Below are positions 36,273 through 63,922 of a stretch of DNA of 64,000 bases, one piece after another (within the stretch, counting starts at the first letter, position 1; every line of letters starts with the position of its first letter). The notes under the pieces were generated by a model. The model was not told the origin of the DNA and made no database searches. It worked only from the letters and a program-made list of their open reading frames with translations. The stretch covers positions 3,162,001 through 3,226,000 of the forward strand of contig NZ_JAIWJX010000002.1 in assembly GCF_023149135.1 (NCBI RefSeq), written 5' to 3'. The translations under genes were made by a program, and so were the position numbers. This DNA is from Fictibacillus marinisediminis (GTDB lineage: Bacteria > Bacillota > Bacilli > Bacillales > Fictibacillaceae).

Positions 36273-36899
36273 TTATATTTCTCTCAATACCGCGCGCACA
36301 GGACTGCCATCCGCATCCTTTAACGGCAGCGGCAGCGCGATCAGCTCATATTCTCCTGGCTCCACATCATCAAGGACGATACCTTCCAGGATATTAATGC
36401 CGTTTTGAAGCAAGGCATGGTGTGCAGGAAGCGCTTTGCTGTCGAGGACATCTACAGACGGCACATCAACTCCGATAAGCCTCACACCTTTTTCTGATAA
36501 AAAAGCAGCCAGCTCTTCATCTAGATAGGTGATCTTTTCCGGAAACACGGTTCTGTCCTGCCAAGAGCCTGTTTTCAGCAGCACACGCTCCGCTCCATCC
36601 AGCGGTTGATCTGCCAAATCCTCTGGAGCGATGACCTCTTTGCCCGTAACATCTACCACTATTGCTCTGCCGGCATAGAGCTCAAGATCCAGCTCCAGTA
36701 CCCGTTTTCCTTCACTATCAAAGTGATACGGCGCATCAATATGGGTGCCGGTGTGCGTGCTCATTTCCACTTTACCGACATTCACGGATCCTGATTCTGC
36801 TTTCGTCCAGGCTAAATCAAACGAGTACGGGGTGTCCCCCGGCCAGGTCGGAACGGACGAGGTCAAAGGCATGGAGATATCGATCAGTTTTCCAGCCAT
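36273..36899 (-). CDS. kynB: Kynurenine formamidase
   Basis: A 208-residue cyclase-fold enzyme hydrolysing N-formylkynurenine to kynurenine and formate. STHTGTHIDAPYHF carries the metal-binding HxGTHxDxPxH motif, and VDVPSVDVLDSKALPAHHALL is typical of bacterial KynB. Its start overlaps the end of kynU at 36899, so the genes are translationally coupled. No tryptophan dioxygenase gene (kynA) lies in the operon. Confidence 0.93.
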   Translation of the reverse strand: MAGKLIDISMPLTSSVPTWPGDTPYSFDLAWTKAESGSVNVGKVEMSTHTGTHIDAPYHFDSEGKRVLELDLELYAGRAIVVDVTGKEVIAPEDLADQPLDGAERVLLKTGSWQDRTVFPEKITYLDEELAAFLSEKGVRLIGVDVPSVDVLDSKALPAHHALLQNGINILEGIVLDDVEPGEYELIALPLPLKDADGSPVRAVLREI

Positions 36900-38167
36900 T
36901 ACGCAATCACCTCTCTTACGTTTGAAAACTTTTCATACTGCTTCTCACCCATGATTTTTTTTAGCCGCTGAACCGCTTCATGTACATCTTCAAAAGAGGT
37001 ATAAAGTGCAACAGGAGCAAGGCGGATCACATTCGGTGCACGAAAATCCGGCACGATGCCGTTCTCTTTTAAACTTTTGCAGATTCTCGCTGCTTCATCA
37101 TGCTCCAGGCAAACATGGCCACCGCGACGTATATCATCCCTCGGATTTCCGATCGTAAATCCAAAGCCAGCAAGTTCGGTCTCAATCAGCTCCATCATAT
37201 AGCGTGTCAGATTAAGAGATTTTTCTCTTAGCCGGTCCATTCCCGCTTCCTCAAAAATTTCAAGCGAACCGATTAATGGGGCCGTGCTTAACACGTGCGG
37301 AGTGCCGATCTGAAAGGCTCCCGCAGTATCTGCCGCCACGAAGTCATGATTCATGTCAAACTGTTTATCTTTATTGGAACCGAACCAGCCTGCTAGTCCA
37401 GGCTCTTTTCCAAAATGTTTCGCATTAATATAGAGTCCCGCAACACTGCCCGGTCCCGCGTTCAAATATTTATAGTTGCACCAGAAAGCAAAGTCAACAT
37501 TCCATTCCGAAAGTTGATGAGGCACTGCCCCAATGGAATGGCATAAATCAAAACCGATCAATATTCCGCGCTTGTGGGCCTCATCCGTTAAGCGTTTCAT
37601 ATCGAGCAGCTGCCCGCTTCGGTAGAGCACGGAGGGCAGCACAATAAGAGCTGCTTCATCCGTCATGGCCTTGATGATGTCTTCTTCCTCAATCATCCTG
37701 CCATCACGGCTTTTCACTCTGATCAGATGCTGGCCAGGGTCCAAGCTTCTTAAAGCCAGCTGGCTTTTCAGTGCATAAATATCTGAGGGAAAGGTCAGCT
37801 CATCGGCTAAAATTTTCGTTTTTGATCCTGAAGGTTTAAAAAAAGTGGATGTGAGCTGATGGAGGTTTCCAGTGGTGGATCCAGTAATAATGACTTCCTC
37901 CGGGTTTGCTCCAATTAGTGGCGACAATTTCTTCCCTAGTTCCTCGCTAAGTGTATACCATGGATGCTTTCCGTCCATCCAGCCGTCAATACCGCATTCC
38001 TTCCAATCATTTAGCGACTCCAACAGTGATTTCTCAGCTCTTTTCGACAAAAGCCCCAGCGAATTGCCGTCCAAATACAACACGCCTTCTTTTAAATAGA
38101 ATTCGTTCTTAAAGTTTTTCAGAAAATCTTTTTCGTCCAGTTCTTTCCATTTCCCTAATTCCATCAC
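36899..38167 (-). CDS. kynU: Kynureninase
   Basis: A 422-residue PLP enzyme cleaving kynurenine to anthranilate and alanine. [12 protein letters not shown] at the N-terminus, [12 protein letters not shown] (phosphate site), [13 protein letters not shown] and [15 protein letters not shown] with the PLP Lys are the kynureninase blocks. The start at 38167 is GTG, immediately followed by ATG; AAGGGG is 7 nt before the GTG, so either may be used. First gene of a kynU-kynB operon. Confidence 0.94.
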
Positions 38168-38375
38168 TCATTCGCCCCTTTTTTGCTCTCTCTGTTTATC
38201 TTAAACAATTCAAGGGAAAGCATCAATGAAAACGCTTACTTTACAATAATATTACAATTATGTAACGGCCAAATTACGACAGATTCCTAAAGAATAAGAT
38301 ACTATAATAAAATTGTGTATTAAGCACTAGTAATTGGTTAAAATTGTATGAATTAAGTGACTGTCGGGAATGCCA

Positions 38376-38486
38376 CCCTCCAGTTAAAGGGCAAACATCG
38401 CTGAAAAGCATGGACGCAAAATCACAGGTCTAAGGTGACTTACTATGATGGCTGGATTACCTGGAAAACCACCAATTTCAGGAGGG
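38376..38486 (+). promoter_or_regulatory. Possible riboswitch expression platform: anti-SD CCCTCC and SD GGAGGG
   Basis: CCCTCC at 38376-38381 is complementary to the sinI ribosome site GGAGGG at 38481-38486 and overlaps the first two bases of P1. Pairing with the ribosome site and P1 formation compete, so ligand binding could release the site and raise SinI synthesis. This is inferred from base pairing only. Confidence 0.45.
38380..38464 (+). ncRNA. Cyclic-di-GMP-I (GEMM-I) riboswitch upstream of sinI
   Basis: The sequence carries the GEMM-I core in order: AAAGGGCAAAC, a short hairpin with GAAA loop (GCT-GAAA-AGC), GGACGCAAA, ACAGGTCTAAGG (receptor side) and TATGATGGCTGG. Stem P1 forms between CCAGTTAA (38380-38387) and TTACCTGG (38457-38464) with one mismatch. 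The A, C and G positions that contact c-di-GMP in known structures (GGGCAAAC, GGACGCAAA) are kept. No U-tract terminator precedes the next gene, so control is likely at translation. Confidence 0.9.
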
Positions 38487-38490
38487 AAAC

Positions 38491-38646
38491 ATGGAAACCG
38501 TAAAAAAAACAGAGCTTGATCGTGAATGGGTAGCCTTACTATTACAAGCCAAAAAGCAAGGTTTAAGCATGGAGGAAGTTCGTAGCTATCTTCAAAAAAC
38601 GTACATACCATCAAATGAGCGAATATTTAAAGCGACATCAATGTGA
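38491..38646 (+). CDS. sinI: SinI-like antirepressor, 51 residues
   Basis: A 51-residue protein, MET...ELDREWVALLLQAKKQGL then SMEEVRSYL, which is the SinI dimerisation helix-turn-helix pair (in SinI: ELDQEWVELMVEAKEANISPEEIRKYL). SinI binds SinR and lifts its repression of biofilm matrix genes. The ribosome site is AGGAGGG at 38480-38486, ATG at 38491. Its stop codon lies within the terminator hairpin. sinR follows 80 bp downstream, as in B. subtilis. A c-di-GMP riboswitch forms its leader. Confidence 0.9.
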   Translation: METVKKTELDREWVALLLQAKKQGLSMEEVRSYLQKTYIPSNERIFKATSM

Positions 38647-38656
38647 TGTCGCTTTT
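38629..38656 (+). terminator. Intrinsic terminator between sinI and sinR
   Basis: AAAGCGACATCA pairs with TGATGTCGCTTT around the sinI stop codon. It would separate riboswitch-controlled sinI from sinR, which then needs its own promoter. Confidence 0.85.
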
Positions 38657-38727
38657 GGTCTATTTACAGCCTATCGTCCCTAAATGTATAATAGAAGCAA
38701 AAATTGTAGTAAAAAAGAGGGATTAAC

Positions 38728-39057
38728 GTGATTGGTGAACTTGTAAAAAAATATCGCAAAGAAAAAGGTCTATCTCTATCCTCACTAGCAGAACGAGCAG
38801 GTATCGCCAAATCCTATCTCAGCTCCCTTGAGCGAAATATACAAACAAATCCTTCTGTACAGCTGCTTGAAAAGCTGGCAGCTGTCCTGGATATTCCTGT
38901 TGAAAAATTGCTGAATGAAAAAGCTGAGATCAATGAGGCGGAGCTGGATTATGAATGGGCAGAGCTCGTAAAAGAAGCTATGGAGTCTGGTGTCAGCAAA
39001 GACCAGTTTAAAGAATTTCTTGAATTCAACAAATGGAAAAATAAAAATCAAAGCTAA
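38728..39057 (+). CDS. sinR: SinR-family master regulator of biofilm formation
   Basis: A 109-residue regulator: N-terminal Cro/CI HTH (IGELVKKYRKEKGLSLSSLAERAGIAKSYLSSLERNIQTNPSVQ) and a C-terminal SinI-binding/oligomerisation region (LDYEWAELVKEAMESGVSKDQFKEFLEFNKW). The match to B. subtilis SinR runs the full length. The GTG start at 38728 has AGAGGGA upstream. Likely targets are the SinR-type boxes before the tapA-like operon at 43.2-43.4 kb. Confidence 0.95.
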   Translation: MIGELVKKYRKEKGLSLSSLAERAGIAKSYLSSLERNIQTNPSVQLLEKLAAVLDIPVEKLLNEKAEINEAELDYEWAELVKEAMESGVSKDQFKEFLEFNKWKNKNQS

Positions 39058-39327: not shown

Positions 39328-39662
39328 TTCGCTTCATCATCCTTTGTCTGCTGTTTCCAGCTTTCATACCGTATAAACGTTCGGATTTCCTCCTGATTAA
39401 TTCCCATTTCCTTTGCCTGAATGACGAGTTCCATCCACTCCTGGTCCAATATATCTGCTTCTAGATTAATGACCTTTTCCACAGGCACCTCCAGGGCTTT
39501 CGCCAGCTTTTTAATCATATGTGCGGACGGGTTATTTTTATGATTTTCTATGCTGCTCAAGTATCCTTTAGAGATTCCAGCCATCTCAGCAAGCCTTGTC
39601 ACACTGAGGCCTTTCTCCATCCGGATCCTCTTAATCTGTGTTCCTAATTTCCTCACGATCAC
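39324..39662 (-). CDS. Second SinR/SlrR-like repressor inside the matrix operon
   Basis: A 112-residue protein with both SinR parts: HTH (LGTQIKRIRMEKGLSVTRLAEMAGISKGYLSSIENHKNNPSAH) and a SinI/SinR-type dimerisation region (LDQEWMELVIQAKEMGINQEEIRTFIRYESWKQQ). B. subtilis SlrR has the same layout and forms a mutual-inhibition switch with SinR. Here the gene is the sixth of the tapA-like operon, overlapping the sortase stop by 4 bp. GTG at 39662 with AAGGAA upstream. Confidence 0.9.
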   Translation of the reverse strand: MIVRKLGTQIKRIRMEKGLSVTRLAEMAGISKGYLSSIENHKNNPSAHMIKKLAKALEVPVEKVINLEADILDQEWMELVIQAKEMGINQEEIRTFIRYESWKQQTKDDEAK

Positions 39663-40303
39663 CGACTTCCTTTGCTGGTTAACAACCTTTCCTCAATTAA
39701 CTTGGCCTTCACAATATACCGGTGTGTCGGATGTTTGAACGGGTGACAGGTAATTAACGTGATGATATTTTCATTTTTACTGCTATGTAAGACTGATAGG
39801 TCTGCTGGTTTGACGATTTTTTTGGCGATCATCCGGTAGATCAGCTTTTCTTTTTTGGTTTCAATCGTGATAAGGTCTCCGGTTTTCACTTCTGTCAGCC
39901 GATTGAATTGCTTGCCGTACGTATAGCTTCGGTGGGCTGCGATCGCTGCATTTCCTTCTTTACCAATCGGCGAAGTGCCGGAAACGTGTCCAGCTGCAAC
40001 CTTCAGGTTGGACAGGCTGGCACCTTCTACAATCGGCAAGCGGAGATGGATCCGCTTGATCTCAAGAGTTCCGAGCATACTGTTCGGTAAAGGATCTTTC
40101 CTGACCGGTTTGGTTTCATTTTTCGTTTCAGTAAGAACAGGACCCAGCTTTTTATAGCTGCTGACTGCCTGTTTGGTTGGCGGGTGATCCCATGATTGAA
40201 GTAAGTGGTTTTCCTTGTTCGTATAATAGTAGTTTATTAGTTTTGGGTAACACATCGTTATGATGCCTGTGAGTATAAGTAGATATGCGATCCACTTCAT
40301 CAC
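39659..40303 (-). CDS. Class D-type sortase in the matrix operon
   Basis: A 214-residue membrane-anchored transpeptidase: N-terminal helix (WIAYLLILTGIITMCYPKL), sortase fold from about residue 74 (NSMLGTLEIKRIHLRLPIVEG), catalytic His124 (AAHRSY), Cys186 (TLITCHP) and Arg195 (THRYIV). It begins at the base after the stop codon of the LPXTG protein, so that protein is the obvious substrate. It would join the LPKTG threonine to cell-wall peptide. Confidence 0.92.
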   Translation of the reverse strand: MMKWIAYLLILTGIITMCYPKLINYYYTNKENHLLQSWDHPPTKQAVSSYKKLGPVLTETKNETKPVRKDPLPNSMLGTLEIKRIHLRLPIVEGASLSNLKVAAGHVSGTSPIGKEGNAAIAAHRSYTYGKQFNRLTEVKTGDLITIETKKEKLIYRMIAKKIVKPADLSVLHSSKNENIITLITCHPFKHPTHRYIVKAKLIEERLLTSKGSR

Positions 40304-41107: not shown

Positions 41108-41704
41108 TTACCTTTCAACACCTGCGCCTTGTTTGCCTTCAAAAGTCCATTTAAGTTCTAGTTTATCACCTTGGAATTTATTTTGGTCTTGGCCGTTGTC
41201 TACAAATTCATATTGAACGTAAAGAGTATCGGATGTCCCTGCTGCAAGTTTTCCGCCTCTTTCATCTAACCAAGGGATGAATACTTGGTTTTCAATAGCA
41301 TCTGGTGTCATATTTTTTAGTTGATCCAATGTAGTGTAGAAAATAACTCCATCAGTCTTATCCGCGTTTACTAAGAAATTAACACGGATATGTTTACCAA
41401 AATCTTCACCGGCATTATTACCGTTAGCATCAGTTACTGTATAAGAAGTTTTCAAGAGAACCTTTGCAATATCTAGATTCCCATCATTCTTAAGTTGGAA
41501 CGAACGTGTCATCCAATCACCTGGTTTAATTTTGTCAACATTAATGATAGTAGTAGGAGCGGCGTTTAAGTCTAAAGTACCAGCTGCAAATGTTGCATTT
41601 GTATCTACGCTGTCACTAAAGTACGCATAAGTCCCCCCACCTACTAAAGACAATCCTAATGCTGCTGAAGCTACCCCTAGACCTAATTTCTTTTTCAAAC
41701 TCAT
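41108..41704 (-). CDS. tasA: TasA/CalY-family amyloid matrix fibre protein
   Basis: A 198-residue secreted protein. KKKLGLGVASAALGLSLVGGGTYA is nearly the same signal peptide as B. subtilis TasA; processing by the adjacent SipW is expected. The mature part has YFSDSVDTNATFAAGTLDL and KIKPGDWMTRSFQLKNDG, the TasA/camelysin (Peptidase_M73) pattern. The length is nearer to B. cereus CalY (about 197) than to B. subtilis TasA (261). ATG 41704 follows GGGAGGAAAATTAAA; the ORF's earlier start is not supported. The product forms biofilm fibres. Confidence 0.93.
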   Translation of the reverse strand: MSLKKKLGLGVASAALGLSLVGGGTYAYFSDSVDTNATFAAGTLDLNAAPTTIINVDKIKPGDWMTRSFQLKNDGNLDIAKVLLKTSYTVTDANGNNAGEDFGKHIRVNFLVNADKTDGVIFYTTLDQLKNMTPDAIENQVFIPWLDERGGKLAAGTSDTLYVQYEFVDNGQDQNKFQGDKLELKWTFEGKQGAGVER

Positions 41705-41792
41705 TTTAATTTTCCTCCCTATCCCCATTTCAATGGGTATGTAGTTTTTTATATTGAACCTGCAAAGATTTTTCTCTGCAGAGTTGCAACCA

Positions 41793-42368
41793 TTAATTGC
41801 TTGCTGGCGGTGTATCTTCTTTCTTTGTTACTTCCACTTCCCTTATGGCTTTCCAGATGGTGAGCACAGAGTAGATGAGAAGAAGAATTCCGGGAACGAT
41901 CATCAATAAAGTGGTTCCTTTTTTGGATTGAGCAAATTCCATCCCGTATCCTACATAAGGAACGGTGAAGCCTTTGTACTGAGCGACTACATTGTTGGCA
42001 AGCACTGGCTCCAAGTCAGGGGCATCATTGTTATCGCCCTTTGTTACATAACTTGTGTTTGCCCCGCTGCCTTTTACTTTGTAAATTCTGTGGGTAATCA
42101 ATTTATCTTCAGAAGCCTTGAAGGTGATGACGTCGCCTTTTTTGAAGCGGGTCATGTCTCCTCCTGGCTTAACTGCTATGATTGAGCCTGTATGGATACC
42201 TGGTTCCATGGATCCTGATAAGACTGTTTTTAGTTGATATCCCAGAAAGTTAGGAGTTCCTCCTGATGCTTTTGACGAGATGACTACAAATCCCATAAAC
42301 AATAGAGTTGCAAATAATACAGTTGTAACAATATTACTTAGCCATTTTTTAATTTTGATTGTCTTCAT
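41793..42368 (-). CDS. sipW: Signal peptidase I, SipW (ER-type)
   Basis: A 191-residue membrane signal peptidase of the archaeal/ER type: catalytic Ser53 in LSGSMEP, His93 in ITHRIYKV in place of the usual Lys, TKGDNNDAPD further on, and membrane helices at both ends. In B. subtilis SipW processes TasA and TapA. ATG 42368 follows AAGGTGATC; its first codons overlap the 3' end of the tapA-like gene, indicating coupling. Confidence 0.94.
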   Translation of the reverse strand: MKTIKIKKWLSNIVTTVLFATLLFMGFVVISSKASGGTPNFLGYQLKTVLSGSMEPGIHTGSIIAVKPGGDMTRFKKGDVITFKASEDKLITHRIYKVKGSGANTSYVTKGDNNDAPDLEPVLANNVVAQYKGFTVPYVGYGMEFAQSKKGTTLLMIVPGILLLIYSVLTIWKAIREVEVTKKEDTPPASN

Positions 42369-43182
42369 TACGATCACCTTCCTTTGGTTCTGGAACTTCC
42401 ACTTTTTGATCTATCGATTTTTGCTCGGCATCTTTATTTACATTTTCTTTGTCCTGTTCAGCTTCATTGGTGTTACTATCTGTTGCTGGGTCAGGTTCTT
42501 TCGTTTCATCCTTAACTTCCGCGGGCTTTTCAGCTGGTTTTTCCTCTGTTTTGTCTTTTCCTGAATCGTCAGATGCCGGTTTTTGTTCCTTTTCTGTCTC
42601 GTTCTCTACATTTTCTTTTTTGGCATCTTTATTTTCATCTTTACTTTTATCTTCATCAGTATTTTGTTCACTACATCCAGTTACAGTAATGCCATCACTC
42701 CAAAGTTCTCCGTTACCAGGATGTCCTGGTCTCTGGAACGCTTTAAACATATAAACGCCATTTTTCGTTGGTAAATATGTAAGGGTTTCTTTTTGGTTCT
42801 TCGTTAGGGCATCCATTTGTCCGGTGTCGACTTTACTGCCACCCTTTGGATTTCCTTTTTCAGCCCACCAAACTTCATATTTAACGGGGCCTTGCATTAT
42901 TTCACCCTTATTTACTATTACAGCGCTAATGTTGCTGCATGAAGAATCTTTAGAGGCAGATAGAAACTCCAGTGAGCTTTTATCCCACTTTCCATCCTCG
43001 GTCTCCCAGGTCCCGGCCTGTATCGTTCCGCTAACATTTGATGTATCATTAAAGTAGGCATTTGTAGTTCCGGTCAGGCCGTAAAGGGAGTACATGAGTG
43101 AATAAAAAATAATGCCAACTTGTAAACTTAGAACAAATACCCAATTCTTTTTTCTGAATTTCCTCAGCCGTTTGCTTCTGAT
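42349..43182 (-). CDS. tapA: TapA-like matrix fibre assembly/anchoring protein, apparent ATC start
   Basis: A 277-codon frame. The N-terminal signal (RSKRLRKFRKKNWVFVLSLQ then VGIIFYSLMYSLYGLTG) is followed by NAYFNDTSN, a domain with two Cys (SSCSNISAVIVNKG...GITVTGCSE) and a long Lys/Glu/Asp-rich tail, as in TapA. GGAGGG lies 7-8 nt before an in-frame ATC at 43182, while the first ATG (43095) falls inside the signal peptide and has no ribosome site. No ATG, GTG or TTG is available near the ribosome site, so a rare ATC start is proposed. TapA promotes TasA fibre assembly and wall attachment. Confidence 0.82.
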   Translation of the reverse strand: MRSKRLRKFRKKNWVFVLSLQVGIIFYSLMYSLYGLTGTTNAYFNDTSNVSGTIQAGTWETEDGKWDKSSLEFLSASKDSSCSNISAVIVNKGEIMQGPVKYEVWWAEKGNPKGGSKVDTGQMDALTKNQKETLTYLPTKNGVYMFKAFQRPGHPGNGELWSDGITVTGCSEQNTDEDKSKDENKDAKKENVENETEKEQKPASDDSGKDKTEEKPAEKPAEVKDETKEPDPATDSNTNEAEQDKENVNKDAEQKSIDQKVEVPEPKEGDRNEDNQN

Positions 43183-63595: not shown

Positions 63596-63799
63596 AGTAT
63601 AATAAGCAATGTATTCTACAAAAAAATAGCGATCCATCTTCGGGGCAGGGTGAAATTCCCGACCGGCGGTATTTGAAGATTCCCTCTTCATCAGCCCGTG
63701 AGCTCATGAGAAGAACTGAAACGCATCGTTTCGTTGCTTCTTGTCTGCTGATCTGGTGTAATTCCAGAGCCGACAGTAAAGTCTGGATGGGAGAAGATG
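63596..63799 (+). ncRNA. FMN riboswitch (RFN element)
   Basis: The aptamer spans about 63635-63799: P1 from ATCTTC with GAAGAT, then GGGGCAGGGTGAAATTCCCG, ACCGGCGGTA, AGCCCGTGAGC, TCTGGTGTAATTCCAGAGCCGACAGTAAAGTCTGGATG, all RFN landmarks. A TATAAT at about 63597 with TTCCCA 17 bp before is the likely promoter. FMN binding would favour the terminator at 63923-63955 and reduce expression of the downstream gene. Confidence 0.95.
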
Positions 63800-63922
63800 A
63801 CGGTGCATCGTTCAGTTCTTTTACAATAAAGAGATCTATTGTAAAACGACTGAGCCCTCGCTCAGCTGCATTCTAAGGACATACCGTTCTTAAAATGTTT
63901 ATTTGATGATGCCTGACACACT

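Follow-up and report, generated by a model that had tools for sequence, protein, structure and literature searches.

The SinI/SinR pair is the textbook biofilm switch, and cyclic di-GMP (c-di-GMP) is the textbook messenger of sessile life, high levels of which do not usually go with less matrix. In B. subtilis, the known input into sinI is Spo0A, which acts at transcription. The window, by which is meant the whole 64-kb stretch of DNA analyzed, carries a sin locus of the B. subtilis type, in which sinI is followed by sinR and matrix-type genes lie nearby. It resembles the sinI-sinR locus of B. subtilis (1b0n) in its adjoining SinI and SinR homologues and has a Spo0A-box-like sequence upstream; B. 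subtilis, however, gives no match to the class I c-di-GMP riboswitch family GEMM-I (Rfam RF01051), whereas the sinI of the window has one.

Among described c-di-GMP riboswitches, the cbpA element of B. thuringiensis turns its gene on in response to c-di-GMP and favours sessile life, as is proposed here for the window, yet its target is a surface adhesin and that of the window is a regulator (PMC7793685, in its available part). The same text reports a rise in sinI transcripts when the cyclase CdgF is overexpressed in B. thuringiensis. For B. methanolicus MGA3, an RNA-seq study (BMC Genomics 2015, PMC4342826) lists in its Table 4, as "(c-di-GMP)-sinI", a putative c-di-GMP riboswitch before sinI BMMGA3_08510. 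Ligand class and target gene are those of the window, and the host is likewise a Bacillus; in the available part of that paper the entry comprises one table line and one sentence, with no platform, direction, distribution or test. An earlier note on this DNA, whose author knew of no described case, is corrected by this entry. No further report of a c-di-GMP riboswitch before sinI was found in the open-licence literature, and none is described in the available parts of PMC7793685, PMC10240345, PMC7423583, PMC6192195, PMC5864091, PMC9495176 and PMC8876208. The pairing has been recorded once before, in a table, but is apparently widespread, and its mechanism can apparently be read.

The aptamer and the sin locus

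The GEMM-I riboswitch and the 51-codon sinI-like gene proposed in the earlier note were both recovered (Table 1). In the Rfam covariance-model scan of the 64-kb window, the aptamer scored 63.9 bits against a gathering score of 35 (E 3.4e-10), the alignment covering the whole model (1-87), and it shares sequence and fold with GEMM-I (RF01051; variant RF03167). The P2 and P3 helices, the GAAA-type loop and its receptor, GGACGCAAA and the CTAAGG core are all present, and 22 of 22 aligned base pairs are standard, although the pair 38438:38440, which encloses a one-base loop, is an artefact of the short P3 loop. At the presumed ligand-binding position, which we take to be G20 of Vc2, the core AAAGGGCAAAC has a G, where variants that sense cGAMP have an A. 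A chance match is ruled out by the score and by the recurrence of the arrangement. With c-di-GMP as its predicted ligand, the sinI aptamer is a member of a known riboswitch class, GEMM-I.

The P1 helix was originally drawn with eight pairs (38380-38387/38457-38464). Its outer four, CCAG with CTGG, stand on covariation among leaders; position 38384 would face 38460 as T-C, and the Rfam alignment gives 38457 and 38458 to P3, where their partners are 38421 and 38420. The eight-pair helix was rejected because its inner positions fall to P3 or stay unpaired.

The host genome (G000) holds five GEMM-I elements, of which the sinI aptamer is the lowest-scoring. The other four precede other genes; the window element differs from them in its antirepressor target and its proposed platform, which would hide the Shine-Dalgarno sequence (SD). 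One of the four (L001 1501-1587; G000:C2:1581191-1581277) lies before an open reading frame (ORF) with a GGDEF domain, where feedback on c-di-GMP synthesis is possible. Apart from the sinI aptamer, one element of the window scores above its Rfam cut-off, an FMN riboswitch (63632-63802, +; 114 bits).

Table 1. Features of the sin region, in window coordinates
Feature	Position	Strand	Evidence
Spo0A-box-like TGTCGTA, one mismatch to TGTCGAA	38275..38281	-	sequence
-10 TATAAT of presumed sinI promoter, poor -35	38303..38308	+	read by eye
anti-SD CCCTCC, two-base overlap with P1 5' strand	38376..38381	+	pairs with 38481-38486
class I c-di-GMP riboswitch aptamer (GEMM-I)	38380..38464	+	RF01051 63.9 bits
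P1 5' strand CCAG	38380..38383	+	covariation of P1 across 70 leaders
P1 3' strand CTGG, alternative partner the SD flank	38461..38464	+	pairing models, P1 covariation
Shine-Dalgarno AGGAGGG of sinI	38480..38486	+	sequence
sinI, 51 aa	38491..38646	+	Pfam SinI 46 bits (cut-off 31.4); B. subtilis SinI 1b0n_B E 2.5e-5
terminator-like hairpin over 3' end of sinI	38629..38655	+	terminator scan
sinR promoter-like sequence TTTACA-18-TATAAT, 11/12	38663..38692	+	promoter scan
sinR-like repressor gene, 109 aa, presumed SinI target	38728..39057	+	1b0n_A E 1.9e-40; HTH_3, SinI domains
second SinR-like gene, 112 aa	39324..39662	-	HTH_3 60.3 bits, SinI 37.9 bits
sortase-domain protein	39659..40303	-	Pfam Sortase 110.9 bits
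CalY/TasA-type protein, presumed matrix gene	41108..41728	-	Pfam Peptidase_M73 303.5 bits
SipW-like signal peptidase, weak label	41793..42377	-	Peptidase_S24, S26 below cut-off; gene order; relatives' neighbours

Only 26 nt separate the end of the aptamer from the ATG of sinI. The product of the gene is small, has a Pfam SinI domain over the cut-off and no HTH, and is by homology to 1b0n a putative SinR antagonist. The sinR-like gene aligns with B. subtilis SinR (1b0n_A) over residues 1-106. Between the two genes lie a terminator-like hairpin, which overlaps the last sinI codons, and a promoter-like sequence, and the aptamer therefore probably acts on sinI alone, with the limit that shuffles are nearly as rich in such sites: two terminator-like sites occur in the stretch scanned against 0.8 expected in shuffles, and the three promoter-like sites against 2.8 in shuffles make that of sinR weak evidence alone. 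The hairpin recurs with a changed loop in L007, a locus of the same genus, and is likewise retained, with altered loops, by relatives within the genus. Upstream of sinI, a kynureninase-type gene (36899-38167, -) keeps its place in the genus.

The Spo0A-box-like site lies in CAAATTACGACA, which is identical in six aligned genomes of the genus, and the TATAAT -10 is invariant in six genus members; the consensus promoter scan did not report this presumed promoter. An exact copy of TGTCGAA, which we take to be the Spo0A box consensus, precedes the aptamer on either strand in 16 of 75 loci (mean 1.13 and maximum 4 in 200 shuffles), and a copy with at most one mismatch does so in 49 of 75 (mean 23, maximum 33); the window itself has a one-mismatch box only. 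This set comprises 75 of 77 loci, two being short or containing N, with L119, L152, L126 and L165 excluded. Because Spo0A boxes are enriched upstream, control by c-di-GMP probably comes on top of Spo0A control and does not take its place, and sinI may integrate both Spo0A~P and c-di-GMP.

Leader designs and the proposed mechanism

Pairing statistics, like those on the Spo0A box, cover the first 80 stretches of the pattern scan described below and the window, L166-L197 lying outside them. The hairpin set began with 79 leaders (78 named ones, without L119 and L152, and the window) and came to 73 on removal of four with no P3 end, one with no GGAGG and one duplicate; the core could be placed in 70 of these, which form the P1 set, and 58 of the 70, with three or all four P1 pairs present, form the accessibility set.

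The sinI leaders share two designs. The more frequent design extends the P1 3' strand into a hairpin whose other arm is the SD flank, of the form CCTGAAATAC-loop-GTATTTTAGG and then AGG; in the other, to which the window belongs, an anti-SD lies at the 5' strand of P1. At least eight of the ten pairs of the SD-flank hairpin form in a single ungapped register in 43 of 73 leaders, against 0-3 if one of the two strands is slid by 1-3 positions. This hairpin is conserved, yet covariation gives it little support, since re-dealt strands reach 42 of 73. P1 does covary: across 70 leaders, 223 of its 280 pairs are standard, the maximum of 5000 permutations being 207, and its second position is C-G in 34 leaders and T-A in 13, with the pair counts of both P1 and hairpin inflated by kinship among the sequences. 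Fewer than three of the four P1 pairs are found in 12 of 70 leaders, and L007 has a C-A mismatch in P1.

The competition between P1 and sequestration of the SD is a matter of pairings and accessibility shifts in models. When P1 was enforced, SD accessibility rose in 55 of 58 leaders and fell in three, the median going from 0.27 to 0.61; the mean change of 0.33 compares with 0.18 for shuffled platforms (p 1.7e-6). In the window, the anti-SD pairing 38376-38381:38481-38486 has a probability of 0.95 in the free ensemble and of 0.10 with core and P1 enforced, while the mean unpaired probability of the SD goes from 0.13 to 0.46. The anti-SD is kept in L007 and L093. It stands above shuffles (fraction at most 0.05) in only seven of the 28 leaders that lack the hairpin design, that of the window included, and in three of the 42 that have it, so that this test was a weak one; the whole window leader is no stabler than its shuffles (z 0.16). 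Energy is where the proposal is weakest: P1 itself has a probability of 0.00 in the modelled free ensemble of the window, and its state costs 5.0 kcal/mol relative to core plus anti-SD and 7.3 relative to the free ensemble, in a model without ligand or tertiary contacts, which would have to make up this gap of 5-7 kcal/mol. A terminator-type platform was considered and is unsupported, the terminator scan having found no terminator-like site between the aptamer and the sinI ORF. For both designs, the models make an ON switch at translation most likely.

The scheme put forward starts from what was computed, namely the aptamer, the gene, the recurrence, the competing pairings and the element's absence or decay in genomes with few or no c-di-GMP enzymes. 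Transcription of sinI would start from a promoter probably activated by Spo0A~P. In the absence of c-di-GMP, the ribosome-binding site would be hidden, in the window by the CCCUCC that lies just 5' of and overlaps P1, and in the larger group of relatives by the hairpin of the P1 3' strand with the SD flank. Binding of c-di-GMP would stabilize aptamer and P1, P1 would take up the competing strands, and the SD would be freed for the synthesis of SinI. SinI would then bind SinR and derepress matrix genes, for example those of the CalY/TasA-type cluster close by. As sinR has its own promoter-like sequence, c-di-GMP would shift the SinI:SinR ratio. Ligand binding, the ON direction, the Spo0A input, SinR antagonism and the matrix output are steps that we infer, and a probability of roughly 70% is given, from sequence and models, to the whole scheme in which a class I c-di-GMP riboswitch in the leader turns on translation of sinI.

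Recurrence and decay among relatives

A protein search for SinI in 120 relatives and the host genome gave 129 matches by our own count. Of these, 109 were examined, three being SinR-like, which leaves 106 SinI genes without HTH that were counted; the other 20 comprise 19 with open frames of at least 100 aa, probably SinR-like, and one that was overlooked (G027:C1:385779-385889). In 50 of the 106 SinI genes, from 46 genomes, a c-di-GMP riboswitch of the same orientation precedes the first aligned SinI residue by 19-60 nt, against a chance expectation that we estimate at about 0.01 for some five elements per genome; in the Rfam scans, the other 56 have no such riboswitch upstream. Forty-nine of the 50 are class I (RF01051 or the variant RF03167).

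The remaining one is class II (RF01786, 63 bits, cut-off 53.5) and precedes a SinI-like ORF in L240 (G082:C1:4366154-4366237; L240 1-400, -). It has the same ligand and type of target as the window element and an unrelated fold, and was found once: class II matches occur in 55 of the 120 genomes, and comparison by eye placed no other next to SinI. A pattern of class II before SinI gave no match in 397 genomes, a result that carries no weight since the pattern also missed the known G082 case. G037, which by its label belongs to the same genus as G082, has class I before SinI (L035).

A strict pattern of aptamer letters, SD and SinI DxxEW codons, run over a species-level genome collection, gave 112 stretches (L086-L197) from 28 named genera. 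These include Peribacillus, Fictibacillus, Oceanobacillus, Metabacillus, Mesobacillus, Neobacillus, Rossellomorea, Halobacillus, Salipaludibacillus, Alkalihalobacillus and Alicyclobacillus. A Pfam SinI domain is encoded by 111 of the 112, the exception by sequence being L119; the tally consists of 78 of the 79 first stretches with a start chosen by rule and all 33 of the remaining ones, L152 being read from a non-standard start. Since some genomes are in both collections, the 50 genes and the 112 stretches are not independent counts. No record title among the 112 stretches from this strict pattern names B. subtilis or B. cereus, and RF01051 has no match in 14 control genomes, B. subtilis included. 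Within Fictibacillus, the SinI of L093 (Fictibacillus terranigra) equals that of L007, which keeps its sinI aptamer at 61.5 bits, and the SinI of L174 (Fictibacillus sp. FJAT-27399) is nearly identical to that of the window. The aptamer core reads AGCAAAC rather than GGCAAAC in L109, L114 and L157; an A at this position marks variants of altered specificity (cGAMP). In L020, a GEMM-I element (492-583) followed by a SinI-like ORF lies about 900 nt upstream of a second SinI gene that has no direct riboswitch, the two SinI genes adjoining each other.

The neighbourhood was tallied in the 65 named loci of the first 80 stretches with at least 700 nt downstream. A SinR-like ORF begins 100-700 nt after the sinI start in 39 (23 tandem, 16 convergent) and in none of the other 26, and CalY/TasA or SipW is matched within the available stretch in 11.

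Genomes with few or no enzymes of c-di-GMP were also found in which the element is absent or decayed. Five of the 120 relatives have no GGDEF match and all five are without class I elements, which are missing in 15 of the 120 under stricter filters that lose weak matches; the chance of this coincidence is about 1.6e-5 if relatedness is ignored. Three of the genomes without GGDEF (G002-G004) belong to the genus of the window and have sinI between the same neighbours and behind the same promoter block, with the riboswitch absent; a single weak EAL match remains in each of G003 and G004, and PilZ is missing from all three. The riboswitch is kept in G000 and G005, with seven and four GGDEF, four and three EAL (some of them fragments) and one PilZ match each.

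G001, with two GGDEF matches and one EAL match, is intermediate: its sinI leader (L011, about 115 nt) aligns with the window aptamer better than 500 of 500 shuffles, while 4 of 500 shuffles do as well against a second reference, L007. The Rfam scan finds no match in this leader, such relics going unrecognized even at E up to 10, and the alignments point to an apparent riboswitch relic. The P1 letters CCAG/CTGG are kept in L011 and core letters are changed. Leader alignment revealed no relic in L008-L010 (G004, G003 and G002). An intact element, a relic and no element within one genus offer a natural comparison. In another genus, the leader of G055, which has no GGDEF, EAL or PilZ, resembles the aptamer found in its sister G098 (equalled by 1 of 500 shuffles) and has no Rfam match; the two loci, L018 and L019, set a scoring element in G098 beside a resembling leader in G055. 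G098 itself has an above-cut-off element although its GGDEF matches number one, a weak one, and neither EAL nor PilZ is matched, a pattern that fits a recent loss but could alternatively count against the coupling of riboswitch and c-di-GMP.

Control of sinI by c-di-GMP appears well supported by comparison: by recurrence, by conserved platforms involving the SD, by the class II case and by the pattern of loss and decay. The recurrence of the arrangement in many relatives of Bacillus suggests a direct and widespread link.

Alternative readings and the meaning of the link

SinI may be controlled as proposed with an output that is not mainly matrix, acting instead on the second SinR-like protein, or in processes like motility or sporulation. 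The window has two SinR-like genes, 26 of the 65 loci show no SinR-like ORF within the set distance and CalY/TasA or SipW appears in 11; this reading is nonetheless unlikely, with SinR adjoining sinI in 39 of 65 loci and a CalY/TasA-type cluster beside the sinI of the window. Distinctly unlikely, too, is an OFF switch, in which c-di-GMP would lower SinI synthesis and high levels would keep SinR active. The class I riboswitches of C. difficile reportedly all act as OFF switches (PMC9495176, in its available part), the modelled SD of the window is still partly paired under enforced P1 (0.46 unpaired), and accessibility fell with P1 in 3 of 58 leaders. Against it, P1 raises accessibility in 55 of 58, beyond shuffled platforms, and high c-di-GMP with less matrix contradicts the usual sense of the signal.

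The gap of about 26 nt between aptamer and ORF would also suit a route other than ribosome binding, by which the aptamer would act, for example, on Rho-dependent termination or RNA stability. Such a route is improbable, given that this gap contains no terminator-like site and that the conserved alternative pairings include the SD itself. It is very improbable that the window element is a relic that no longer binds c-di-GMP. Its score is the lowest of the five in its genome, and loss has occurred in the genus; yet the aligned pairs are all standard, the core motifs are whole, the genome has seven GGDEF matches, and L007 of the same genus retains the element at 61.5 bits.

The translational ON switch remains the preferred reading of the sinI leader. 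On a wider and more tentative reading, which we hold with somewhat less than even confidence, sinI across the Bacillaceae in the wide sense would be a two-input gate, in which Spo0A~P makes the message, c-di-GMP licenses its translation and matrix needs both. Control by c-di-GMP would on this view be the rule for the group and B. subtilis, whose sinI has no riboswitch, an exception, under a selection strong enough to have recruited a class II stand-in at least once and to let the element decay where c-di-GMP synthesis was lost. SinI/SinR and c-di-GMP, which in B. subtilis are not joined by a riboswitch, would have a conserved direct link in many other genera. If true, this link would explain a route by which c-di-GMP reaches matrix genes in Bacillaceae, and the sin switch would become a gate with two inputs.
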